NCBI GenBank assembly: GCA_029432815.1
Contig: JAROBA010000012.1
Span: 1 to 64,000 of the forward strand
Source: Pontiellaceae bacterium B1224
GTDB lineage: Bacteria > Verrucomicrobiota > Kiritimatiellia > Kiritimatiellales > Pontiellaceae
Direction of reading: 5' to 3'
Length of the DNA stretch: 64,000 bases
This document shows, piece after piece, positions 34,609 to 60,734 of the stretch (position 1 is the first letter of the stretch; every line of letters begins with the position of its first letter). The translations under genes and the position numbers were made by a program. The notes beneath the pieces are model-generated. The model was not told where the DNA came from, did no database searches, and was given only the letters and a program-made list of their open reading frames with translations.

Positions 34609-36888
34609 ATGATGAAACAGAGTATTTATCAGCGAGGAATTTTGGCTGCGGGACTATTGATGGGGATTGCTGCATGTACGACGGCAGAAGAGAGCGTGGC
34701 TATCGATTGGCCGGAATACATGGCAATGCAGGATCAGCATTTTGAGCGCGTGCCGCAGCTTTGGGACGAGGCGCCTTTTGTTGGTAACGGGGTGATGGGT
34801 TCCATGATTTTCCAAACCTCGGAAAATCAATTGACCATCCAGATCGGCCGCGGCGATGTCCAGGAGCATCGAACCGAGTCGGGTAAGCACCAGGCGAATA
34901 ATGTGCTTCCGGATTCCTCGCGTCTTCCGGTTGGCTATTTTACGCTCGATACCGTCGGAAAAATTGAAGACTGTGATTTGCGTCTGAACCTGTGGGATGC
35001 AGAAATTACCGGAACCATTACGACAGATCGTGGTGAACTGGAGATTCTGGCCTTTATTCATTCTGAGCGAAATCTGTTGGTCGTAAAAACCACGGCGGAT
35101 TTAAAGGAAGCCGGGTTTTCCTATGCCTGGCATCCGGAAGAAGCGTTCTGCCCGCGGGTGAAAGGGAAGCGGAAGGGCGGCGGAGCATATCGTCCGTTAT
35201 ATGATGGAAATCCCGAGCCGGTTATTACAGAGGGCAAAGAAATCAGTACCTGTGTGCAGCCGCTGAGCGGCGGCGGTTTAACCGCGACGGTCTGGTCGAT
35301 TGTTGAAAAGGGGAAGACCAAAACGCTGCTGGCCAGCGTGGGGCATACGTATCCGGAACTCAATGCGCTGGAGCTGGCTACGGCCGATGTGCAGTTTGGG
35401 AAGAAAGCATCGCTGGACAATTTATTGAAAACGCATCGTGTTTGGTGGAATACATTTTATCCAAAGAGTTTTGTCTCCTTGCCGGATGCCAAAATGGAGA
35501 GTTTTTATTGGGCGCAGAATTATAAGATGGCGGCGGCTACCAAGGGCGGGCAGGTGATTGCCGACAATCAGGGCGTGTGGATGCAGCCGGAAACGGGGTG
35601 GCCGGGCGTCTGGTGGAACCTCAATGTGCAACTGGCCTATTCGCATATGCTGCCGGCCAATCATCCGGAGCTGTCGGAAGGGCTGGTGAACAGACTGCAC
35701 AAGTATCGCGATAACCTCGCAAAGAATGTGCCGGAGCATATGCAGCATGATGCTGCGGCCATCAACACGGTTTCGGGGCAGGAACTGATTTCGCCGGTGC
35801 GCGATCCGAGCATTCAATCGAGCCGCGGCGTCACGACCGGTAATCTGACGTGGGCGATGCACAATGCCTACATGCAGTATCGCTACACGATGGATGATGA
35901 AATGCTGCGCGAAAAGATCTTCCCGCTGCTGAAACGCTCCGTCAATTTTTACCGCCACTTCATGTTTGAAGGCGAAGACGGAATGCTGCACCTGCCGGAA
36001 ACCAGCTCCCCGGAATATGGTGATGTCGAGGACTGTAGTTATGATCTCGCGCTACTGCGCTGGGGGTGTGAAACGCTGATCGAAATTTGCGGGGTTCTCG
36101 GTATCGATGATCCGCTGATTCCGGAATGGCAGAACATTCTGGATCATCTCACGCCGTATCCGGTGGATGAAACCGGTTTTATGATCGGGAAAAATATGCC
36201 GTATGCACGGTCGCACCGCCATTATTCCCATTTGATGATGCTTTACCCACTGGGCATGATGGACCTGGATGATCCCGCGCAACGCGAGCTGGCTTTGAAA
36301 TCCGTAAAACATTGGCAGAGCTATCCGGATGCACTGGCCGGCTATTCCTATACCGGTTCATCTTCCATGTATTCCCTGTTTGGTGACGGCGAAACGGCAG
36401 AACAGCGCCTGCAGGATTTCTTTAATGACAAGCTGCTGCCGAACACGTTCTACAAAGAGGGGTCTCCGGTCATCGAAACGCCGCCGGCCGGAGCGCGATC
36501 CATTCTTGATATGCTGATCCAGAGCTGGAATGGAAAGATTCAGGTCTTCCCGGCCGTTCCGGAAAAATGGAAAGATGTTTCCTTTGCCAACCTGCGTGCG
36601 GAAGGCGCCTTTCTGGTGAGCGCGGTTCGTGAAAATGGACGTACCGTTTTTGTGTCGGTGAAGAGTCTTGCAGGAGAACCGCTACGCGTGCAGTCTGGTA
36701 TGACTGGTGCGCTAAAGGTGACGGGTGTCGATCCATCTGTTGTAACCGATCTCGGAGGCGGTGTGGTGGAAGTTGATCTGCCGAAGGGAGCGACGGTTAC
36801 GCTGTCGGCTATGGACTACACTGGCGATTTTGCCATCAAGCCGGTTGAAAAAACACTCCACGCCGATTGGCACTGGGGGGTGAAATAG
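34609..36888 (+). CDS. GH95-like lipoprotein, divergent member
   Basis: A 759-residue protein with a lipoprotein signal (lipobox GIAAC, Cys near residue 24), so it is probably membrane-anchored. The body follows GH95 architecture (APFVGNGVMGSMIF at the start, then an alpha/alpha barrel and C-terminal beta-domain). Compared with the GH95 enzyme at 2404, the NxN pair (NLNVQL) and SPE (TSSPEYG) are kept, but the catalytic Asp of QIDGNFG aligns with Glu in VIETPPAG. Activity may therefore differ from a true fucosidase. GAGGA lies before ATGATG; ATG 34612 has the better spacing. It is divergent from the two-component genes. Confidence 0.82.
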   Translation: MMKQSIYQRGILAAGLLMGIAACTTAEESVAIDWPEYMAMQDQHFERVPQLWDEAPFVGNGVMGSMIFQTSENQLTIQIGRGDVQEHRTESGKHQANNVLPDSSRLPVGYFTLDTVGKIEDCDLRLNLWDAEITGTITTDRGELEILAFIHSERNLLVVKTTADLKEAGFSYAWHPEEAFCPRVKGKRKGGGAYRPLYDGNPEPVITEGKEISTCVQPLSGGGLTATVWSIVEKGKTKTLLASVGHTYPELNALELATADVQFGKKASLDNLLKTHRVWWNTFYPKSFVSLPDAKMESFYWAQNYKMAAATKGGQVIADNQGVWMQPETGWPGVWWNLNVQLAYSHMLPANHPELSEGLVNRLHKYRDNLAKNVPEHMQHDAAAINTVSGQELISPVRDPSIQSSRGVTTGNLTWAMHNAYMQYRYTMDDEMLREKIFPLLKRSVNFYRHFMFEGEDGMLHLPETSSPEYGDVEDCSYDLALLRWGCETLIEICGVLGIDDPLIPEWQNILDHLTPYPVDETGFMIGKNMPYARSHRHYSHLMMLYPLGMMDLDDPAQRELALKSVKHWQSYPDALAGYSYTGSSSMYSLFGDGETAEQRLQDFFNDKLLPNTFYKEGSPVIETPPAGARSILDMLIQSWNGKIQVFPAVPEKWKDVSFANLRAEGAFLVSAVRENGRTVFVSVKSLAGEPLRVQSGMTGALKVTGVDPSVVTDLGGGVVEVDLPKGATVTLSAMDYTGDFAIKPVEKTLHADWHWGVK

Positions 36889-40055: not shown

Positions 40056-40715
40056 ATGAAATTTTTACAGGAAGATCTGCTACATCACTTACAGCGGGAA
40101 GAATTCGCTGAGCTATACGCCTCGCTCATCCGCCGCAGCTATTCCAAGGGCGCTTTTATTTGCCACCCGACGAATGATGCAAACCGGATATTCATCATTG
40201 CGCGGGGTCGGGCCCGGGCTTATCTGGGCTACGAGGACAAAGAGTTTAATCTCGGGATTCTGAGCAAAGGCGACATCTATACTACCCACACGCGGGCCTA
40301 CGTGCAGGCTTTGGATGAAATGGAGATCCTGATTACAGATGCCATGACCTTCAGGCGCAAGATGCTGGGTGATCCGGAGGTTGCAAAGTCCATGGTCGGG
40401 GTGCTGGGCAGTATGCTCAGTGCGGCATTCCAGATTATTGAGGGCCTCGCCTTTAAAGATGTCAACAGTCGATTAGCGACGTTGTTGGCTGGCGAAGCGG
40501 CTAATCATGGCATCACCAATGCGAACGGGGAGATCATTATTCAGATCGACCTTTCAGTAGAACAGATTGCCGGTCTGCTCGGCTCCACTCGTCAGACGGT
40601 GTCGACACTGCTCAATGACCTTTCGCGGCAGGGGCTGATCAAAAGACTGGATCGTGGCCGCTTTCTCATTTGCAACCTTCAGGGACTGGAAGCCATTGCC
40701 GCACCAACGCTTTAA
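40056..40715 (+). CDS. Crp/Fnr-family regulator resembling the CO sensor CooA
   Basis: A 219-residue transcription factor: N-terminal cyclic-nucleotide-binding-like beta-roll (IFIIARGRARAYLG), long dimerisation helix and a Crp-type helix-turn-helix (LSVEQIAGLLGSTRQTVSTLL). Over its whole length it reads like CooA, the haem-based carbon monoxide sensor. In particular GDIYTTHTRAYVQA (about 72-85) lines up with the CooA haem segment, so H78 matches CooA His77, while CooA's Cys75 is Thr here. There is no N-terminal Pro ligand. Haem and CO binding are inference from memory of the family, not shown. The Shine-Dalgarno is weak. It converges on a CooS-like fragment 24 bases away, which supports the assignment. 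Confidence 0.8.
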   Translation: MKFLQEDLLHHLQREEFAELYASLIRRSYSKGAFICHPTNDANRIFIIARGRARAYLGYEDKEFNLGILSKGDIYTTHTRAYVQALDEMEILITDAMTFRRKMLGDPEVAKSMVGVLGSMLSAAFQIIEGLAFKDVNSRLATLLAGEAANHGITNANGEIIIQIDLSVEQIAGLLGSTRQTVSTLLNDLSRQGLIKRLDRGRFLICNLQGLEAIAAPTL

Positions 40716-40739: not shown

Positions 40740-41336
40740 TTATGAATAAGCCACTTCGTCGCAGTAGTAACGGTCGCACCAGTCCTGAGCCAAACGTTTT
40801 TCGTGGATATAGTCTTCCAGCAGGTCGGCATTGTCCATGGGATCGCTGTTCATGCGGATGATCCTGCCGTAAACCAGCTCCTGATCGCCGCCGGGATTCG
40901 GTGCTGACGTCCAGGCCATTTCGGTTAGTGGCAGCTCCCCGATACCGACGGTTGCCAGCTCGGCCTGCTGCATGTAGAAATTGCGCATGTTTGAAGCATC
41001 GGTTTCGAGGTTCATGTAAACAACCGGATGAATGCCAATGAATTCGCAGAGATCGAGCAGGCCGGAGTCGACCTGTTCAAAGAGGGCTGGGTTTTTCTTT
41101 TCTGCCCTTTCCACATCGTCGGCGGCACGGCCCGCAAGGACTACGAGGATATCGCGTTTTATCAGTTCCTGGGCGAGTGGAATCAGTTCTGCGACGGGCG
41201 CAACGCCGGAGAGCAGAGCCGCGATACCGCGGATTCGACCGAACTCGAGCGATTTTAAGAATATATCGCCGTTATCCATGCATAATTTCCAAGGGTCTGT
41301 TTCGCGGAGCTCTCCATTCTGTACGACTGTGTTCAT
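40740..41336 (-). CDS. Short CooS-like (carbon monoxide dehydrogenase C-terminal) domain protein without cluster cysteines
   Basis: A 198-residue stand-alone protein that resembles the last third of CooS, the Ni-Fe carbon monoxide dehydrogenase. RGIAALLSGVAPVAEL, QELIKRDILVVLAGRAA, SGLLDLCEFIGIHPVVYM and DPMDNADLLEDYIHEKRLA follow CooS order. The residues that in CooS hold the C-cluster (Cys in GCNN, in TGC and in MGSC) are absent; at the TGC site there is R70. It therefore cannot carry the cluster. AGGAG precedes the start. It is intact, with no frameshift, so it may have a structural or regulatory role. It converges on the CooA-like gene. Length is about 30% of CooS. Confidence 0.72.
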   Translation of the reverse strand: MNTVVQNGELRETDPWKLCMDNGDIFLKSLEFGRIRGIAALLSGVAPVAELIPLAQELIKRDILVVLAGRAADDVERAEKKNPALFEQVDSGLLDLCEFIGIHPVVYMNLETDASNMRNFYMQQAELATVGIGELPLTEMAWTSAPNPGGDQELVYGRIIRMNSDPMDNADLLEDYIHEKRLAQDWCDRYYCDEVAYS

Positions 41337-41403
41337 ATTTTTCTCCTGTTCATTTTGGTGTTGATCTGGGCGGATTACCGTTATGTGGCGCCCATTCTGC
41401 CCC

Positions 41404-41435
41404 GTCAGGCCAGCGCCGTCTGTCGGCTGGCTGAC
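41404..41435. other. GC-rich hairpin upstream of the CooS-like gene
   Basis: GTCAGGCCAGCGCCG pairs with CGGCTGGCTGAC around a short loop, with one bulged base. It lies about 70-100 bases upstream of the minus-strand CooS-like gene, between it and the LacI remnant. It is followed on the plus strand by A-rich, not T-rich, sequence, so it does not look like a terminator for either side. It could be a regulatory RNA structure or a protein-binding site. Confidence 0.4.
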
Positions 41436-41499
41436 AAAAACGAATAAAAAGAAAGGTGTATGAAATCGGCTTCAAAGGATAGGAGCTGCTGATTCCGGC

Positions 41500-42399
41500 T
41501 CAGCAGCGTTTCGGCAGCATGGAACCGTCGATCCATTTCCCATCGATCAGCGTTTCTTTTTGGATCGCGGGAATTCCGAAGTGTTGTTCAGTCAACTGAG
41601 AGACCAGGGTGCGAACCGCAGCGCGGCCGATTTCCTCCGGATTTTGGTCGATGCCGGCGTTAAGCGGGGTGTCATGAATGCTGAGCGTGGCCAGTCCGAT
41701 ATCGCTGGGAATATTATAGCCCAGATCATTAAGCACATGAAGGAGAGGCGGTCGTTCAGTAAGGATGGCATCGGGCTTATACCTGTTGATCCAGTTTTTG
41801 ACATCGCGGATCTCAGTGTCGGACGTGTTGCCAGGGTCATCATTGTCCACTTTTGAAAAGAGAGGTGGCAGTTGCCGGCTTTTTGGAAGCGAATACTGAG
41901 CAAAGGTGAATCCGGCAGCAAACATACGGGTTGGAGAGCGATGCCCGCAGAATCCAATGCGCTGATAGCCTTTTTCGTGCATCTTATTGAAGGCCAGATA
42001 GGCATTGCGAACTTGCGCACTCGTGATTCGGTGTGCTTCCGGATAGGAGGTGCTGAGGCCGAATCGGACCGTCATATAGTCCTTCCAGGGAAATGTATCC
42101 CACCCGCCGGTCATATTGCCGCCGCCCAGTGAAGCAAGGATGATGCCCTGAATATTCCGGGTTTTAAAAATTGTATCCATCCGTTTCAGAGAAAGCGCAC
42201 TGGTGGTGAATTCCTCTACATGAAATCCGAAATGCGCTGCAGCTTGAAGTGCGCCTTCCCAATAGAGTTTAAACTCTCGCTGAGCACGAAGTTGAGCAGG
42301 ATTTTTAAAGGGGTTGATCCAGGCTAAGGTCGCATTTTTAATTTTTTCATGATTCTCCAGACGATAGTTGGACAGCGCGGAAAGCATGGGGTCGGGGTG
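41500..42399 (-). pseudogene. LacI-type regulator lacking its DNA-binding domain
   Basis: About 300 residues of the ligand-binding half of a LacI-family repressor, starting at PDPMLSALSNYR, the linker that normally follows the helix-turn-helix, and running through the periplasmic-binding-protein fold to LIDGKWIDGSMLPKRC. The expected 50-60 residue helix-turn-helix is missing. An open frame continues upstream to 42654, but that part is only the antisense of the surface-protein gene on the other strand. The gene was thus beheaded by a rearrangement at about 42397-42405. Without a DNA-binding domain it cannot act as a classic repressor. A start codon for the remnant is not evident. Confidence 0.85.
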
Positions 42400-43500
42400 C
42401 TCACGGTGACTTCGAATTTGACGTTTGAAAGCGGCTCGACCTGCAACATTGGCGTGGGCGCAGGCAGCTCCAGCGGCAACCTCGATGTTGGTGGCACATT
42501 GTCGCTGAACGGATCGAGTCTTGAAATCGACGGTACGCTCAATGGGGATGGCGTGACGTTTGCCACCGCCGCCAGCGTTTACGGCGAGTTCATCAACTAC
42601 CCTGATGAAGCCTACGTGCAAACCGGCAGCGGCGACGTTCATTACTTCATTCATTATGCTGCGGATTCTGTTACGATCAACACCAATGGAACCTACGTGG
42701 CACCGCCTGCGATTGGATCTCCCATTCTATGGGATATCGGCAAAGCTTCAAATGCAAATAATATGCCTTCCGTTGCCTCCAATTTTACGGAAGCCGGGGT
42801 CTCGGAATATATTACTGGAGCAACGGTCTCAAATGTCGAGGGGGCGCAATCGATGACGGATGGTTTCATAACCGTAAATCTAAGCGCTTATACCGGGGTT
42901 AGTGTAAAGAATGGGGTCACATATACAGGTGCCGGTGCGTCAATCATTAGGGAATATGTTTATCTTAAGGACCAGAGCGCGGTTATTACGATTGGCGGAC
43001 TGTCGCGCAGATTAGCTCCTAACACAGAATACTACTTATATATCTGGGGCAAGGGCGATGCCGCAACACAGAATGGAACCTTCTCATACGGCGGAGTGGA
43101 TATAACAACTTCAACTGCTGATCCTCTTACCACCGATGCGTCGGAGTTTATGGCTAAGTTCAGTTTCACTACGGACGCAACCGTTGCCGACACGCTCGAT
43201 GTCGATTGGACCATAATCAGCACATACACCGGCTTCAACGGTTTTGCGATCGTTGCGGCGGCTGATCCGCAGCCAACGGTCGGGGAGATATCAATTGATA
43301 TTCTTTCGAGTGGAACGAACGCCGTATTAAGCTTCGCCACCGACCCTTTTGGACTCTATGGGGTTGAGATGAAAACAAGTTTGTCGGACAATTCGTGGAG
43401 TGATCTTGGCTTAGAGATTGATGGAACCGGTGGCATTGTGACCGTTACGAATGCGGTATCAGCGGATGTGGAGTTCTATCGCGCTTTTATTCAGGACTAG
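42400..43500 (+). pseudogene. 3' part of an autotransporter-repeat surface protein
   Basis: About 365 residues of a surface protein without a beginning. It starts in the middle of a passenger-type beta-helix repeat (LTVTSNLTFESGSTCNIGVG, LDVGGTLSLNGSSLEIDG) and continues into two beta-rich domains ending VEFYRAFIQD. No signal peptide, ribosome-binding site or sensible start is present; the frame is open upstream only through the antisense of the LacI remnant (ATG 42349). It shares its breakpoint with that remnant, so one event truncated both. No PEP-CTERM or outer-membrane barrel is seen at the end. Confidence 0.8.
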
Positions 43501-50236: not shown

Positions 50237-50345
50237 ACTTATCTTTCTGATTAATGTATAAAATATACCACCGTAGATCTTGACCGACAAGCTTTGTGGA
50301 ATCGTGTTTTGTGGTGCTATCAATCGAAAACCAAGGAGAGATACT

Positions 50346-52133
50346 ATGAGTGCAGATAAAACATGGATCACAAAACTTCCAAAGGTTGGAATTCGCCCAA
50401 CCATCGACGGTCGCTACGGCGGCGTACGTGAATCCCTTGAAGGTCAGGTTATGGCTATGGCTGAAAATGCAGCCAAACTGATTAGCGAAAACCTGAAATA
50501 CCCGAATGGCGAGCCGGTCGAATGTGTGATTGCCGACACCTGTATCGGGGGGGTGGCTGAATCCGCTGCCTGTGCAGAAAAATTTGATGCTGAAAACGTG
50601 GGCGTCTCTCTGACGGTTACTCCGTGCTGGTGCTACGGCTCCGAAACCATGGATATGGATCCGCTGCGTCCCAAAGCAGTCTGGGGCTTCAACGGTACCG
50701 AGCGCCCCGGTGCGGTTTATCTGGCGGCCGTACTGGCTGGCCACACCCAAAAAGGACTTCCCGCCTTTGGAATCTATGGACGCGATGTCCAGGACGGTGG
50801 CGACACCACGATTCCTGACGATGTGAAAGAAAAAATGCTTCGTTTCACCAAGGCCGGTCTGGCTGTTTCCATAATGAAAGGTAAATCCTATCTCTCCATG
50901 GGCGGTGTTTCGATGGGGATTGCCGGTTCCATTGTGGACCAGAACTTCTTCGAAGATTATCTCGGTATGCGTGTTGAAGCCATCGATCTGATGGAAATGC
51001 ATCGTCGCATTCGTGACGGCATTTTCGATCAGGAAGAATATGTGCAGGCACTCGCCTGGGTGAAAGAAAACTGTTCTGAAGGTCACGACCCGAATGGCGA
51101 ATCCACCACGCGCTCCCGCGAACAGCTGGACAAAGAGTGGGAAACATCCGTCAAAATGGCGATGATTGCCCGCGACCTGATGTATGGAAATGAAAAGCTC
51201 GATGAGATGGGCTACAAGGAAGAAGCGCGCGGGCACAATGCTATTCTTTCCGGTTTCCAGGGACAGCGCCACTGGACGGATGCCGAAGCTAATGGCGACT
51301 TTATGGAAGCCATTTCCAACAGCTCGTTCGACTGGAACGGCATTCGTATGCCGCGCCTGATGGCCACAGAAAATGACTGTCTGAACGGCGTTCCGATGCT
51401 CTTCAGCTATCTGCTCACCAACAACGCTCAGGTCTTTGCTGATGTTCGTACGTACTGGAGCCCCGATTCCATCGAGCGTGTCACCGGTCATAAAGTTGAC
51501 GGCGTTGCCGCCGGCGGACTGATCCACCTCATAAACTCCGGTTCAGCATCGCTGGACGGCAGCGGGGAGCAGTCCGACAACGGTACGCCTGCAATGAAGC
51601 CTTTTTGGGACATTACCGAAGAGGAAAAGCAGGCCTGTCTCGATGCCACCACCTGGCATCCGTCGGTCACGGAATATTTCCCGGGCGGCGGCTGGTCTTC
51701 CAAGTTTACCACCAAAGCGGGTATGCCCATCACCATGAGCCGCGTTAACATTGTTAAAGGCCTTGGTCCGGTGCTGCAGATTGCAGAAGGCTGGACGGTT
51801 GAGCTCCCCGATGATGTGCATGCGAAGCTCGACGACCGCACCAACAACACCTGGCCGACCACCTGGTTTGCTCCGCGCATCACCGGCAAAGGCGCCTTCA
51901 CCGATGTTTATGAAGTGATGGCTAAATGGGGCGCCAATCATGGTGCATTCAGCTACGGGCACATTGGTGCTGATCTGATCACGCTGGCTTCCATGCTGCG
52001 CATCCCGGTCTTCATGCACAATGTGGAAAACGGCGATGTCTACCGCCCAAGCGCCTGGAGTTCGTTCGGAACTGAAGGACTCGAAGGCGCGGACTTCCGT
52101 GCCTGCGAAACCTATGGTCCGATTTACGGATAG
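50346..52133 (+). CDS. fucI: L-fucose isomerase
   Basis: A 595-residue L-fucose isomerase (E. coli FucI 591 residues), converting L-fucose to L-fuculose in the cytosol with Mn2+. The metal and catalytic residues known from E. coli can be placed: E342 (ATENDCLNG), D366 ([10 protein letters not shown]) and H539 (SYGHIGADL). The N-terminus [20 protein letters not shown] is the usual FucI opening. AAGGAGAG precedes ATG 50346. Downstream come fucP and fucU; kinase and aldolase are not in the window. A perfect iterated palindrome covers codons 11-15 (50377). Confidence 0.98.
50377..50391. repeat. Iterated palindrome, spacer AGG
   Basis: Perfect TTCCAAAGGTTGGAA at the 5' end of fucI (encodes LPKVGI). 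Together with the one-mismatch copy at 50195 it brackets the fucI/AraC intergenic promoter region. Confidence 0.9.
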
Positions 52134-52205: not shown

Positions 52206-52229
52206 GGATTATTTATATAGGGGGAATCT

Positions 52230-54158
52230 ATGAAAAAATCAGAAAATGACATACCTGTTGTTCCTAAGGGCTTATTGGTGACATTCGTTCTCGTGACGAT
52301 CTTGTTTCCGTTATGGGGCTTTGCCAACGATATCACCAATCCGATGGTGGCAGCCTTTAAGAATATTCTTCTGATCAGTAACTTTGAGAGTTCATTGGTT
52401 CAGGCGGCGTTTTATGGAGGCTACGCTCTGATGGCCATCCCCGCTGCGATTTTTATTAAAAAGTATTCATATAAAAAAGGAGTACTGATTGGGCTGGCGC
52501 TCTATTCGATCGCCTGTCTGATGTTCATTCCCAGCGGAATGGCTATGTCCTATCCTCTCTTTCTGCTCTCTTATCTAATTATGACGAGCGGGCTTTCATT
52601 TCTGGAAACGACTGCAAATCCTTACATCCTTTCCATGGGAGACGAGCGTACGGCAACGCGTCGTCTGAACTTGTCACAGGCCTTCAATCCGATGGGTTCA
52701 ATCACCGGGATGTTTGTTGCGAGTATGTTTATTCTGGCCGCGCTGAACAGCACATCTGAAACCGGTCGTCGGCAGATGAAAGAGCTTGCTGATAATGGAA
52801 CGCCAATTTATCTGCAGGAAGTAAATTCCCAATTGGATACCGTTGCGGATTTGACTACTGTAACGAGCGAGCCTGAATGGCAGGAAAGCAAAAAACTGGT
52901 GAAGAAGGCGGGCGCACTCGCTGGTGCACTTCAGAAGGGAACATTCCTGCTGGATAATAAGAATGCGGCTGATGCTGAAGCGGTTCAAACCGCGATCGCC
53001 GCTCAGCCTCAGGGTAATAAATTTAAGTCTGCAATTGAAGCCGTTGCGGTTGTAATGCAAGTTCGTGAGCAACCTGCCCCCACCAAAGCTGAAGCTGAGC
53101 GGAATGAGTTATTTGTTGATGGTCGCGGGCTCGAACTCACATTAGCGCTGAACGAAGAAGCTCCGTTGCTCGCTAAGGCTGATGAGCAAAGTTGGAAAGC
53201 TGCTGAAAAATCATTAGACCAAGCGGTTGCTCCGGCAGCAAAGATAAAAGCTGCGATGGATTCTGGCGACACTTCTGAAATGGCCGCAATCCCAAGCTTG
53301 CTTTCGAACGTAAAAACAGAGCTGGAAGCCGCACAGAAAAATCTTCAAAGTATTCCTTCTGCGAGCTTGCAGGCACACCAAAAAGAGGCTGCCGAAAGCC
53401 TCAATACGATTCAAAAATCAGATTTAGGGATTGTTTCAACCCCTTATGCTTTAATGGGTGGATTTTTGATTATCGTACTTGGGATCTTTGCCTGGAAGTT
53501 GCCGAAAACTACAGAGGGAGAGCATGGAGGCGATGTCGAGGGGCTGGACCTTAAAGGAACTTTGGGGCGTCTATTTCATAACAAAGCATATCTTGAAGGT
53601 GTTGTTGCACAAACCTTTTATGTCGGTGCTCAGATCATGTGCTGGACTTTCATTGTGCAGTACGGTGAGCTTGAATTGGGATTATCTAAATCCACTGCTC
53701 AGAATTGTAATATTCTGGCGATGATTATTTTCGTTTCCAGCCGTTTCATCTGTACCTTCCTGATGCATTACATCAGTTCTGGTGCACTGCTAACGATTCT
53801 GGCATCGGGAGCCATCCTGCTGACTACCGGAACCATCTTCGTTGAAGGCTACGCAGGACTCTACTGTCTGATTGGTGTTTCCGCATGTATGTCGCTGATG
53901 TTCCCGACCATTTACGGAATTGCTCTGGATGGATTGGGCGACGATGCCAAGCTGGGGTCAGCCGGATTAATTCTGGCTATTGGCGGTGGATGTATTATGA
54001 CTCCGTTGCAGGGGCGTATTATCGATCTTCCAGCCCTAGACCTCGGCTTCGCCGAGCTGGCCAGTGTGCGCGCCTCGTTTGCGCTTCCGCTGATTTGTTT
54101 CATTGTTATTGCACTATACGGATGGCGTACCTTTAAAATCCACCGTGTAGCTAAATAA
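52230..54158 (+). CDS. fucP: L-fucose/H+ symporter (FucP-type MFS) with a large extra periplasmic loop
   Basis: A 642-residue major facilitator of the FucP family (E. coli FucP 438 residues). The N-terminal half (WGFANDITNPMV, FYGGYALMAIPAAI, SFLETTANPYIL with conserved E126) and C-terminal half (YALMGGFLIIVLGIF onward; SLMFPTIYGIALDGLGDDAKLGSAGL) are normal. Between helices 5 and 6, about residues 173-400, there is a hydrophilic, Ala/Glu/Lys-rich, helical stretch where E. coli has about 35-40 residues. Topology places it in the periplasm. By my alignment the Asp known as D46 in E. coli is Asn here. GGGGGAA lies upstream of the start. Gene order with fucI and fucU supports fucose as substrate. 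Confidence 0.93.
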   Translation: MKKSENDIPVVPKGLLVTFVLVTILFPLWGFANDITNPMVAAFKNILLISNFESSLVQAAFYGGYALMAIPAAIFIKKYSYKKGVLIGLALYSIACLMFIPSGMAMSYPLFLLSYLIMTSGLSFLETTANPYILSMGDERTATRRLNLSQAFNPMGSITGMFVASMFILAALNSTSETGRRQMKELADNGTPIYLQEVNSQLDTVADLTTVTSEPEWQESKKLVKKAGALAGALQKGTFLLDNKNAADAEAVQTAIAAQPQGNKFKSAIEAVAVVMQVREQPAPTKAEAERNELFVDGRGLELTLALNEEAPLLAKADEQSWKAAEKSLDQAVAPAAKIKAAMDSGDTSEMAAIPSLLSNVKTELEAAQKNLQSIPSASLQAHQKEAAESLNTIQKSDLGIVSTPYALMGGFLIIVLGIFAWKLPKTTEGEHGGDVEGLDLKGTLGRLFHNKAYLEGVVAQTFYVGAQIMCWTFIVQYGELELGLSKSTAQNCNILAMIIFVSSRFICTFLMHYISSGALLTILASGAILLTTGTIFVEGYAGLYCLIGVSACMSLMFPTIYGIALDGLGDDAKLGSAGLILAIGGGCIMTPLQGRIIDLPALDLGFAELASVRASFALPLICFIVIALYGWRTFKIHRVAK

Positions 54159-56298: not shown

Positions 56299-56662
56299 AA
56301 AAAAATAAAGGGACCCGTTGTCCCTTCGATCAAGAAACCCCTTTTGTGAAATAAAATTTTCAGGGCTATACCCATATTGATATACAGCCCCCCGTCGAAC
56401 TCGCCGACCCCCGCCCCCCGGTCAGCTCCCAACCTTGCCGCCGATCCTTCCGCACCCGTGGAAGCTGGGGAACGAGTCGGCTAAGATGTTGCCAGGAATG
56501 CGAATCAAACAGACTTCCCATGATTCATGATAAAGACAAATTAAAAGGAACGTTAAAAATAGTCAAATACCGCTTGTCTTTTACCCCTGCAAAATCTACG
56601 TTTCCGGGCATGGGAAACACCGACCCTTTAAATTTGTCGTTTAACCAAAAGGAGCAAGTGCA

Positions 56663-57268
56663 ATGAAAGCCATCATCTATACACGCGTTTCAACCTCCGA
56701 CCAGAAACCGGAAAACCAAATCCGGGAGCTGAAAGCCTATGCGGAAAAGCAGGGATGGGAAGTGCTGGAAGTCATCAAAGACAAGATGAGCGGAACCAAG
56801 GCCGCCAAGGATCGCCCCGGACTAAACAAGGTTATGAAGCTGGCCGCACAGCAACAATTCGACGTGCTCCTGTTTTGGAGCCTCGACCGCCTAAGCCGTG
56901 AAGGAACCCGGCAAACGCTGGGCTATCTGCAAACTCTATCCGAGCGGGGCGTAAAGTGGCACAGCTACAGCGAAGAATATTTAAGTAGCTTGGGAGCCTT
57001 CGCCGATGTGGTGGTATCCATCCTTTCCACGCTGGCGAAGCAAGAGCGTATCCGCATATCCGAACGCACCAAGGCCGGATTGCAACGCGCCAAAGCCGAA
57101 GGCAAAACCCTTGGCCGCCCCGAAGGCAAACAAACACAGAAGACCATCGACCGTATCCGGCTCGTTAAGCAGCTACGCGCCGAAGGATACAGCTTCACGA
57201 AGATCGGCCAGCAACTAGGCATTACGAAGCAACGCGCTGCACAGCTTCACAAGATGGAGGCCGCCTAG
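56663..57268 (+). CDS. Serine recombinase of the resolvase/invertase family
   Basis: A 201-residue small serine recombinase. The catalytic domain has S10 in YTRVSTSDQ, followed by SGTKAAKDRPGLNKVM and the LSREGTRQTL region; a long E-helix ends near residue 135 and a C-terminal helix-turn-helix (GYSFTKIGQQLGITKQRAAQLH) binds DNA. AAAAGGAG precedes the start. It is the only plus-strand gene of the element; all others are on the minus strand. Small resolvases usually act on plasmid or transposon dimers rather than integrate, so another integrase may lie outside the window. Confidence 0.95.
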   Translation: MKAIIYTRVSTSDQKPENQIRELKAYAEKQGWEVLEVIKDKMSGTKAAKDRPGLNKVMKLAAQQQFDVLLFWSLDRLSREGTRQTLGYLQTLSERGVKWHSYSEEYLSSLGAFADVVVSILSTLAKQERIRISERTKAGLQRAKAEGKTLGRPEGKQTQKTIDRIRLVKQLRAEGYSFTKIGQQLGITKQRAAQLHKMEAA

Positions 57269-57883: not shown

Positions 57884-59860
57884 CTAGACTTCCGGCAATA
57901 AACAAACACCTCTTTGCTCGTTGTGATATTCCCGGTATTGCCAAGAGCCGTCCGGGCCGTAATCGAAGAAAAGATATTTGCTGCCCTCTTGGCTGCCATC
58001 CTCTCGGCATTTCTGGACAAGAAATCTTGCGTCGTGCTCCGTTTCCCATCGGGCAAGCTCTTCGCCGTCGCCTTTGTTCCGGGCTTCGTCCATCGCCTCG
58101 CTTTTCTCCCGGTTGCGCCAGACACAAAGCACGTTGTCGGCATTGTCCGTGATGGCCTTCGATCCAGAAACCGAATGTTTCATAGGCGGGTTCTTGCTGG
58201 CCGGGTGCCGGGAATCCGGTTTCCGGCTATGGGCCACCAAATGCACATGCACGTCAAACCGCTTGGCAAAGGCTTGCAGCCAGTTCATCAGCTCTTTGGA
58301 TGTTTCCGCCTGCTCTTCGTTTATGTCGTCAATCCGCATCAAGGAATCAATAAAGAAGTGTTGCACCCCGTACTTTTTTGCCACGTACTCGAACAGGGCC
58401 AGTGTTTCGGCAATGGTTGCACCTCCGACCCGGTTGAAAACGAAAAAATATTTATCCATCCACTGAATCGACTTATCGAAATATTTCCGCGTCGGCTTTG
58501 TTGTTCCGATAAGCTGCCGCATCATATTCTTAAACGTCTTTTTCGGCTTCATTTCAAAGGAGGCAATGCAGGTTTTCTTTCCCTGCAATGCGAAGTTTAA
58601 AGCGCAATGGCCCATGCAAACCGTTTTGCCGTCGCCACTGTATCCCTGCCACACCGTCACCTCTCCAGGGCGAAACCGGAACGGCAGCCGCCACGGGGTT
58701 TCATCGCCGGGAATCACTCCGTCTACCGGGAAAAACTCTTCCCAAATTTCCTGTTTAAAATCCGAAGGCCGCCGAAGGTCTGCCGGATCTGCATTGCGGG
58801 CATTCTTGAACAGCGGATAAATATCAACCCCGGCCAAAGCGCAACCGTTCGCGTCTTTGTGCGCTTGCGGGAAATCAACCTGCATACACTTTTCCGCGCC
58901 CAACCGGGGAAGGATTGCCGCCGTTGCCAGCCGCCCGGATTCATCGGCATCCAAGGCCAGATAGATTTTGCCGACCGTTTCCAGCCAGTCCGTGTCATGC
59001 TCCAACCATCCATTGTTTGGATTGTCGGCGTGCAGCGGGTCGCCCGCGTTCTTGGCAAACTTCGCACCGTATGGAACCGATACGGCATTGAAGCCAAGAT
59101 CGGCCAGCGTGAGCGCGTCAAGCTCGCCCTCGGTAATGGCAAGCTCATTCGGTATCGTGTCTTCCGCAAAGATTGCTTGCTGCCCCCATAGCAGCATCGG
59201 CTTTGCATCCTTCACCGCCGCCTTGGTGAACATGTTCGATTTATTTTCCACGTCCCGGCACTTCACAAGCTCCAGTTCGTTCGCCTGATTGTAAAAGGGG
59301 AAGATAACAAAATGCTGTTCCACGCCCGTGTCCTTGTCCTTTCGTATGTACTGGCCGACCCGATAGAGCGAAAGCGTTTCCGGCGATATGCCGCGCTCTT
59401 CGACCAACCACTTCCAAACCTTGGAACCTTTCGCCAGCGGTTGCAGCAGCCAAGAAAGGTCTTGGCGTTCGCCCGAAGGTTTGGCCGTTGCAGCGCCACC
59501 CGTCACGCGCTCCCACTTGCTTTCCGGCGAAGCCTTGCGCTCTTTACGCTCCGGCTCTCCAAGGTTGTAGTGTTCCCGGATCTGCCCCAAGGCCGTCTTG
59601 AAATCCACCGAACGGCAAGCCATCCATAAATCAATCAGGCTGCCGCCACCGTCGCCGCTCTGGAAATCCTTCCACCGTCCAACCGTTGCCCCGGTCAGGT
59701 CGATAATCAACGAGCCGCCCTTTCGTTTATCCTTCGGCGAGGCGTTGTGTATATCGCCGACCGTCCAACGATTCTTTACCTTCATCCCGGCGGGAAGCAG
59801 AAAAGAGCAAACCTCTTCCGCCCGTGCGTTCAAATGCTCCTTGATTTGCCAAAGCTCCAT
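57884..59860 (-). CDS. Primase-helicase (Toprim plus DnaB/RecA-like ATPase)
   Basis: A 658-residue replication protein of the phage/plasmid primase-helicase type. Residues about 30-100 are a primase-like N-domain (GRWKDFQSGDGGGSLIDLW) without zinc-binding Cys pairs. A Toprim core has E245 (TEGELDAL) and D304/D306 (ALDADESG). The C-terminal RecA/DnaB-like ATPase has Walker A GYSGDGKT at 406-413 and a Walker B-like HFFIDSL. It would unwind DNA and perhaps make primers for the element's replication. It lies 4 bases after the upstream gene. A perfect iterated palindrome is inside (59412). Confidence 0.88.
   Translation of the reverse strand: MELWQIKEHLNARAEEVCSFLLPAGMKVKNRWTVGDIHNASPKDKRKGGSLIIDLTGATVGRWKDFQSGDGGGSLIDLWMACRSVDFKTALGQIREHYNLGEPERKERKASPESKWERVTGGAATAKPSGERQDLSWLLQPLAKGSKVWKWLVEERGISPETLSLYRVGQYIRKDKDTGVEQHFVIFPFYNQANELELVKCRDVENKSNMFTKAAVKDAKPMLLWGQQAIFAEDTIPNELAITEGELDALTLADLGFNAVSVPYGAKFAKNAGDPLHADNPNNGWLEHDTDWLETVGKIYLALDADESGRLATAAILPRLGAEKCMQVDFPQAHKDANGCALAGVDIYPLFKNARNADPADLRRPSDFKQEIWEEFFPVDGVIPGDETPWRLPFRFRPGEVTVWQGYSGDGKTVCMGHCALNFALQGKKTCIASFEMKPKKTFKNMMRQLIGTTKPTRKYFDKSIQWMDKYFFVFNRVGGATIAETLALFEYVAKKYGVQHFFIDSLMRIDDINEEQAETSKELMNWLQAFAKRFDVHVHLVAHSRKPDSRHPASKNPPMKHSVSGSKAITDNADNVLCVWRNREKSEAMDEARNKGDGEELARWETEHDARFLVQKCREDGSQEGSKYLFFDYGPDGSWQYREYHNEQRGVCLLPEV
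59412..59426. repeat. Iterated palindrome, spacer ACC, inside the element
   Basis: Perfect TTCCAAACCTTGGAA in the primase-helicase gene; on the coding (minus) strand it encodes SKVWK. Confidence 0.9.
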
Positions 59861-59864
59861 GCTC

Positions 59865-60734
59865 TCAATCCTCGTTTTCCGTTTTGTGTTGCTTCCGTGC
59901 CCGCTCTTCCGCCAGCCGCTTCAATCGTTCCGCCTGTGATTCTTCGCCCTCCGGACGATCCATCAAACGGGCACTGATCGCCGCCCGCGTGGCCTCTTCA
60001 TCGGCTAAAGTTTGCGCGGCGTTTTTTTGTGGAAATCCCCGGCTTCCATCTTTCTTTCCGCAAGACCGCCGTAAATACTTCTCAAACTCCCGCACCGGGA
60101 ACCGGATCGAACCCGCCCCGGCAAGCTGCCGCTCAAAGGCCTCCACGGCCTCGGCCACATCGCACCCAGGGCAAGCCGCAAGTGCCCGCTGGAACTCGAA
60201 ATCCTTCACCCGCAGGCAATCTGTATGCGCTGATTTGAACCGCTCGAAAAGATCATGGGGGAACCCATCCGGGGCGGGGGTAGAACCTATTCCTTCTTCC
60301 TTCTTATTCTCTTCTTCATCTTTAGATTCGGCATTCGGGCGGCAATCGTCTCGGCGTTCCGCTCGGTAATCGGTTCGGCATTCGTAGCTGTCCGGGTCTT
60401 GGAAACGCCAATAATTGCAGATGGAAACAACAACCCCGCGTTCGGCATTCCTTGTGGTAATCATCCCGGCATTCCGCAGGGCTTTCATAGAATTTTCGCA
60501 TTGGGTCAGGGAGTAGGTCGCTTTTCGCCAGCCGATTTTCCAATGCAACGCATTTTGAATTTCCGGGCAACTGGTAAGCAGCTCGCCCCGTTTCAAACGC
60601 TTGCCATCCTGCCAGAACGCTTTCCGCAGCAGGTAATCCCATATCTCCCGCGTGTGGGGCGGCATGTGTGCAACCTCGCTATCATCGATGCAACGCGCCT
60701 TGAGATAGTACCCGCCCCGGATCGGTTCACTCAT
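59865..60734 (-). CDS. Replication-associated winged-helix protein (putative)
   Basis: A 289-residue protein. Its N-terminal half resembles phage replisome-organiser or DnaT-like winged-helix proteins (PPHTREIWDYLLRKAFW, KRGELLTSCPEI, TQCENSMKALRNAGMITTRN). An acidic linker (SKDEEENKKEE) and a helical C-terminus ending in a charged coil follow. ATG 60734 (MSEPIRGGYYLK) is preferred over the upstream start at 60767. Position directly before the primase-helicase, with 4 bases between them, supports a role in helicase loading. Function is inference from architecture and context. Confidence 0.72.
   Translation of the reverse strand: MSEPIRGGYYLKARCIDDSEVAHMPPHTREIWDYLLRKAFWQDGKRLKRGELLTSCPEIQNALHWKIGWRKATYSLTQCENSMKALRNAGMITTRNAERGVVVSICNYWRFQDPDSYECRTDYRAERRDDCRPNAESKDEEENKKEEGIGSTPAPDGFPHDLFERFKSAHTDCLRVKDFEFQRALAACPGCDVAEAVEAFERQLAGAGSIRFPVREFEKYLRRSCGKKDGSRGFPQKNAAQTLADEEATRAAISARLMDRPEGEESQAERLKRLAEERARKQHKTENED

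Follow-up and report, generated by a model that had tools for sequence, protein, structure and literature searches.

The regulator CooA switches on CO-oxidising enzymes as well as CowN. Its binding consensus has been described as TGTCGGCNNGCCGACA (Rodionov et al. 2004, PMC545781), and the cooSC genes of D. desulfuricans carry a CooA site, TGTCaGCcAGCCGACA, at −111 (PMC545781 Table 10). CowN is a small protein that relieves the CO inhibition of nitrogenase; it is regulated by CooA and binds to nitrogenase (PMC8047169). In G. diazotrophicus, cowN adjoins cooA and lies downstream of a CooA site, and the predicted fold of CowN is a four-helix bundle (PMC8047169).

Here, we describe a cooA-like gene and a stand-alone fragment of cooS in a window of 64,000 nucleotides, the whole stretch of DNA that was analysed. 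On balance, we favour the view that the fragment gene encodes a CO-regulated, functional, non-catalytic protein of CooS fold, and that it stems from a cooS/cooA locus that was gained by horizontal transfer and became reduced. New in this analysis are the predicted CooA operator upstream of the fragment gene and the convergent arrangement of the two genes. The features are as follows.

40056–40715, plus strand: CooA-family CO-sensor activator of 219 aa (homology and alignment to CooA-1, 2fmy)
40740–41336, minus strand: stand-alone CooS C-terminal-domain protein of 198 aa, predicted to be catalytically dead (homology, alignment and AF2 model)
41337–41353, minus strand: region of the ribosome-binding site, AACAGGAGAAAAAT, preceding the ATG (sequence)
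41394–41399, minus strand: possible −10 hexamer CAGAAT, weak with 4/6 matches (picked by eye, putative)
41421–41436, minus strand: predicted CooA operator TGTCAGCCAGCCGACA with its 5′ end 100 bp ahead of the ATG (perfect pattern match)

The CooS-like fragment and its CooA neighbour

The open reading frame of the fragment gene runs on the minus strand, and the plus strand at 40740–41336 is interrupted by stops. The sequence-only reading had noted a good ribosome-binding site and an undisturbed frame. Indeed, a well-matching Shine-Dalgarno sequence, AACAGGAGAAAAATATG, precedes the start codon, and neither a frameshift nor a stop was found. The same reading had assigned the protein to the C-terminal third of CooS and had suggested a profile search as a check. 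This search revealed a significant match to the CooS model TIGR01702 (E 1.3e-10, 40 bits, model positions 424–542 of 621); the score is below the full-length cut-off of 478 bits, as expected of a fragment. The Prismane Pfam model remained sub-threshold (0.0014). Among CODHs in the PDB the best match was D. vulgaris (6e-5), and CooS proteins of other genomes reached up to 68 bits in blastp, with 7.5e-15 to the CooS of a proteobacterial metagenome-assembled genome (MAG), L017. The alignment reaches the CooS C-terminus (SDP...EKRLA.W). A fragment of Hcp/prismane was ruled out, since CooS is closer in both sequence and structure. A chance reading frame or antisense artefact was ruled out by the homology and the codon pattern.

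The alignment confirmed the loss of the C-cluster cysteines. The cysteine of GCNN is replaced by Gly44, that of TGC by Arg70 and that of GSC by Glu111. In addition, approximately 37 residues with the EWYSEKA...H segment (catalytic-Lys helix) are deleted. In CODHs, the EWYSEKA stretch contains the catalytic lysine. Since the three cysteines are replaced and this stretch is gone, the 198-aa protein cannot be a CO dehydrogenase. The N-terminal B/D-cluster region of CooS is absent as well; residues 8–17 have a weak, marginal likeness to the CooS N-terminus (ELRETDPWK / EISDLSPWE, p ~0.05). At the other end, a C-terminal tail, WCDRYYCDEVAYS (40740–40785, minus strand), extends past the end of CooS and contains two new cysteines (CDRYYC, Cys187 and Cys192).

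Structure prediction, also suggested earlier as a check, led to the same family. With a 29-sequence CooS alignment, AF2 modelled the protein at pLDDT 78.8 and pTM 0.79, compared with an uninformative pLDDT of 36 from the single sequence; the C-terminal tail was modelled at pLDDT 56. Foldseek and VIA-align searches with the model returned CODHs first, matching their C-terminal domain (E 2e-8; Z 19.8, 171 residues, 2.7 Å), a match that is partly circular because the AF2 input was itself a CooS alignment. Hcp ranked after the CODHs (Z ~12.8). The model suggests that the product keeps the alpha/beta fold of the CooS C-terminal domain.

The neighbouring gene was correctly recognised as CooA-like. 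Its product matched C. hydrogenoformans CooA-1 at 5e-46 and R. rubrum CooA at 6e-37, and PDB chains without the CooA name gave 2e-16 or weaker. The heme histidine is retained (GDIYTTHTRA, compared with GDIFCTHTRA in CooA-1), and the redox-switch cysteine is replaced by threonine. This loss is no argument against CO sensing, because the CooA of L017, encoded beside an intact cooS, also lacks the cysteine (Ala). Judged by its sequence, the product is a true CooA homologue with predicted CO sensing. The two genes are convergent, tail to tail, with 24 bp separating the stop codons.

Predicted operator, distribution and surroundings

The predicted operator TGTCAGCCAGCCGACA sits on the fragment gene's own strand, reading from 41436 to 41421. 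It fits the pattern TGTC-N8-GACA, has one mismatch to the consensus TGTCGGCNNGCCGACA and is identical in all 16 letters to the D. desulfuricans cooSC site (PMC545781). The 5.38-Mb genome contains five exact matches to TGTCA-N6-CGACA and one to a control pattern. Only the site at the fragment gene is intergenic, the other four lying within open reading frames (e.g. clpC, large secreted enzymes). By rough arithmetic from their genome-wide frequency, a site of this kind would fall into the 163-bp gap by chance with a probability of ~1.5e-4. A standard automatic scan detected no sigma-70-like promoter upstream of the fragment gene. If the weak hexamer CAGAAT served as −10, the operator would be set near −41.5, a class II position. 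By eye, an imperfect inverted repeat, GTCAGCCAGC...GCTGGCCTGAC (41403–41437, minus strand), was also seen, which the predicted operator overlaps. Based on the sequence, the fragment gene appears to have kept the body of a CooA-regulated cooS along with its control element. The idea of a dead CooS domain within a CO-linked module beside CooA thus gains support from an operator in the promoter region of the fragment gene, while the roles that the sequence-only reading put forward for the domain (regulatory partner, metal trafficking or scaffold) stay conjectural.

For the distribution of the pair, we compared 29 genomes of the family (28 relatives), 43 of the order, 346 of the class and 388 of the phylum. 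A stand-alone orthologue of the fragment was found neither in the 28 family relatives nor in the order, class and phylum samples (up to 388 genomes). All other CooS matches in these genomes were full-length (open frames of ~630–730 aa), and no other of the up to 388 genomes contained a comparable CooA. The synteny in relatives that the sequence-only reading had wished to see conserved was therefore not there: the pair is a singleton among up to 388 related genomes. The host genome itself yielded no full CooS. One other Prismane-family protein scored above the cut-off, a full-length protein on contig 142 that matches the whole model, and we read it as Hcp. A further scan of genome contigs, likewise aimed at orthologues of the fragment, returned full-length CooS only. 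Viral contigs and plasmids had no match to the fragment, plasmid CooA matches reached 38% identity at most, and the defence-system database gave no match. The closest CooS and the closest CooA found, with sampling by exact peptide seeds, both occur in L017. Its cluster has the order cooS-cooC-cooA, with an operator-like TGTCAGCTAGGCGACA at −131 of cooS. Because the related genomes have full-length CooS only and no comparable CooA, the pair is probably something that this lineage has rarely acquired, as horizontal transfer would explain.

Next to the fragment gene lies a LacI-type sensor domain (Peripla_BP_3) without the DNA-binding part (41500–42654, minus strand). It abuts a secreted-repeat ORF (42349–43500, plus strand), with whose start it overlaps and which is seemingly cut at its N-terminus as well; a rearrangement junction near 42350 is likely. 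Further away, a GH95-type hydrolase (Pfam; 34609–36888) and, by eye, L-fucose isomerase-like and fucose permease-like genes (50277–52133 and 52221–54158) were observed. From its gene content, the pair seems to lie inside a region of fucose/fucoidan utilisation with many sulfatase-like genes. A serine resolvase (56645–57265, plus strand) and a Toprim/DnaB-type helicase-primase (57884–59920, minus strand) belong to a mobile element; the CooA pair is ~15 kb away.

Maintenance and possible role of the fragment gene

The codon-position GC of the fragment gene is 0.63/0.36/0.63, similar to the values for sound genes of the window. Its identity to CooS is 34.8% at most (core columns), compared with a minimum of 29.9% and a median of 52.5% for CooS–CooS pairs. 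We simulated neutral decay from three CooS domains down to 60% retained identity in 400 runs, with indels left out. The frame was still open in 3–19 of the 400 runs (about 1–5%), and the observed GC1–GC2 contrast was reached in none. The coding signature and the simulation disfavour neutral decay. A recent pseudogene of a normal CooS was rejected, the divergence being too large for a frame that is still intact. The earlier claim that the gene is maintained stands as far as the codon-position signature and the simulation carry it; for dN/dS no orthologue was found.

These data bear on the main rival explanation, an evolutionary remnant. An acquired cooS-cooA locus would have lost the rest of cooS together with cooC by deletion, so that operator, ribosome-binding site and a short frame survive and the product is functionless and not yet decayed. 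The occurrence in a single genome fits this, as does the loss of all three cysteines and the catalytic segment. The adjoining truncated LacI-type gene points to decay or rearrangement in the vicinity, operator and cooA could be leftovers of the donor locus, and the likeness of residues 8–17 to the CooS N-terminus would fit an internal deletion. However, although the fragment has diverged almost as far as the least similar CooS pairs, its frame is free of stops and frameshifts and shows a strong coding periodicity; and neutral simulations seldom leave the frame open and never reproduce the GC1–GC2 contrast. We regard a remnant as rather unlikely.

Less probable is a regulatory partner, a CooS-like protein that would modulate the CO response, perhaps by feedback inhibition, through contact with CooA or else with a partner of CODH-like or Hcp type. 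The tight pairing with cooA and the CooA operator would permit a feedback loop. Such a loop would however control itself without an evident output, and CooS is not known to contact CooA. We consider this reading improbable. Least of all do we expect a metal or cofactor carrier or sensor: the two cysteines of the tail beyond the CooS end could hold a metal together with Cys19 or Cys97, but the tail is modelled at low confidence (pLDDT 56) and no relatives were found to show cysteine conservation.

In the favoured reading, that of a CO-regulated, non-catalytic CooS-fold protein, an ancestral cooS/cooA locus would have been acquired horizontally and then reduced to a CO-responsive unit. CO on the CooA heme would lead CooA to bind the operator at 41421–41436, and operator-bound CooA would then drive transcription of the 198-aa gene, which would thus be induced by CO. 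The product would fold as the CooS C-terminal domain, neither binding a C-cluster nor oxidising CO, and selection would retain its gene.

How the product might act is suggested by an operon elsewhere in the same genome.

L083 4943–9862 (G000 contig C135): Mo-nitrogenase operon nifH-PII-PII-nifD-nifK, in which nifH, nifD and nifK all pass the NCBIfam cut-offs

The host is a marine bacterium that probably fixes nitrogen. Gene content and sulfatase-rich loci suggest Pontiella as its genus, in which P. agarivorans is a described nitrogen fixer (PMC10880615). By analogy to CowN, the metal-stripped CODH domain, once induced by CO, could act through protein contact as a CO-tolerance factor that shields nitrogenase or some other enzyme sensitive to CO. 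It would then be a CowN counterpart of independent origin, made out of an enzyme whose usual task is CO removal. We consider this role doubtful, and below the remnant in probability. A related nifH was found in 10 other family members (28 relatives), all ten of which lack the cooA/fragment module. Since they do, nitrogenase does not require the module. No CooA operator was found near the nif genes in the 20 kb examined. For these two reasons, the ten nif-positive relatives and the nif region without operator, a CowN-like role stays speculative. It is a concrete and testable idea because the genome has a Mo-nitrogenase operon.

A CooA operator has apparently been kept before a non-catalytic piece of the enzyme it formerly controlled, in a genome in which no CODH was found. 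If true, this would show a regulon that outlives its enzyme and an enzyme domain turned into a non-enzymatic CO-response protein. It would also offer a candidate CO-tolerance factor, directly testable, in marine anaerobic nitrogen fixers.

Comparison with known systems

The 198-aa protein resembles CooS (Ni-CODH, TIGR01702; nearest solved structures D. vulgaris 6b6v/7tsj) in its C-terminal-third homology, its predicted fold, the type of CooA operator and the closeness of cooA. In contrast to CooS, it is without ~430 N-terminal residues, the C-cluster ligands of the C-terminal part and the catalytic-Lys segment. Hcp/prismane belongs to the same superfamily and is a weaker structural match, whereas the 198-aa sequence is clearly nearer to CooS. 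Shortened or divergent CooS-like proteins are also known as mini-CooS (clade G, Thermosinus; PMC8776680), but these retain complete metal motifs. Likewise, the partial cooS of C. maritimus (PMC7306483) consists of shortened or divergent pieces, which are however two fragments of one gene rather than a dead domain preceded by a CooA operator.

The CooA-like neighbour shares with CooA-1 (C. hydrogenoformans 2fmy, R. rubrum 1ft9) full-length homology, the heme histidine, a near-identical recognition helix (TRQTVS.LLND) and a matching operator nearby. It differs in the exchange of the heme-ligand cysteine for threonine and in the absence of coo enzyme genes from the genome region examined. The comparison with CowN is one of functional analogy alone, as the 198-aa protein is predicted to be a CooS-type alpha/beta domain and not a four-helix bundle. 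Like CowN, it is small, predicted to be non-catalytic and encoded behind a putative CooA operator with cooA adjacent, and here, too, the host has a Mo-nitrogenase.
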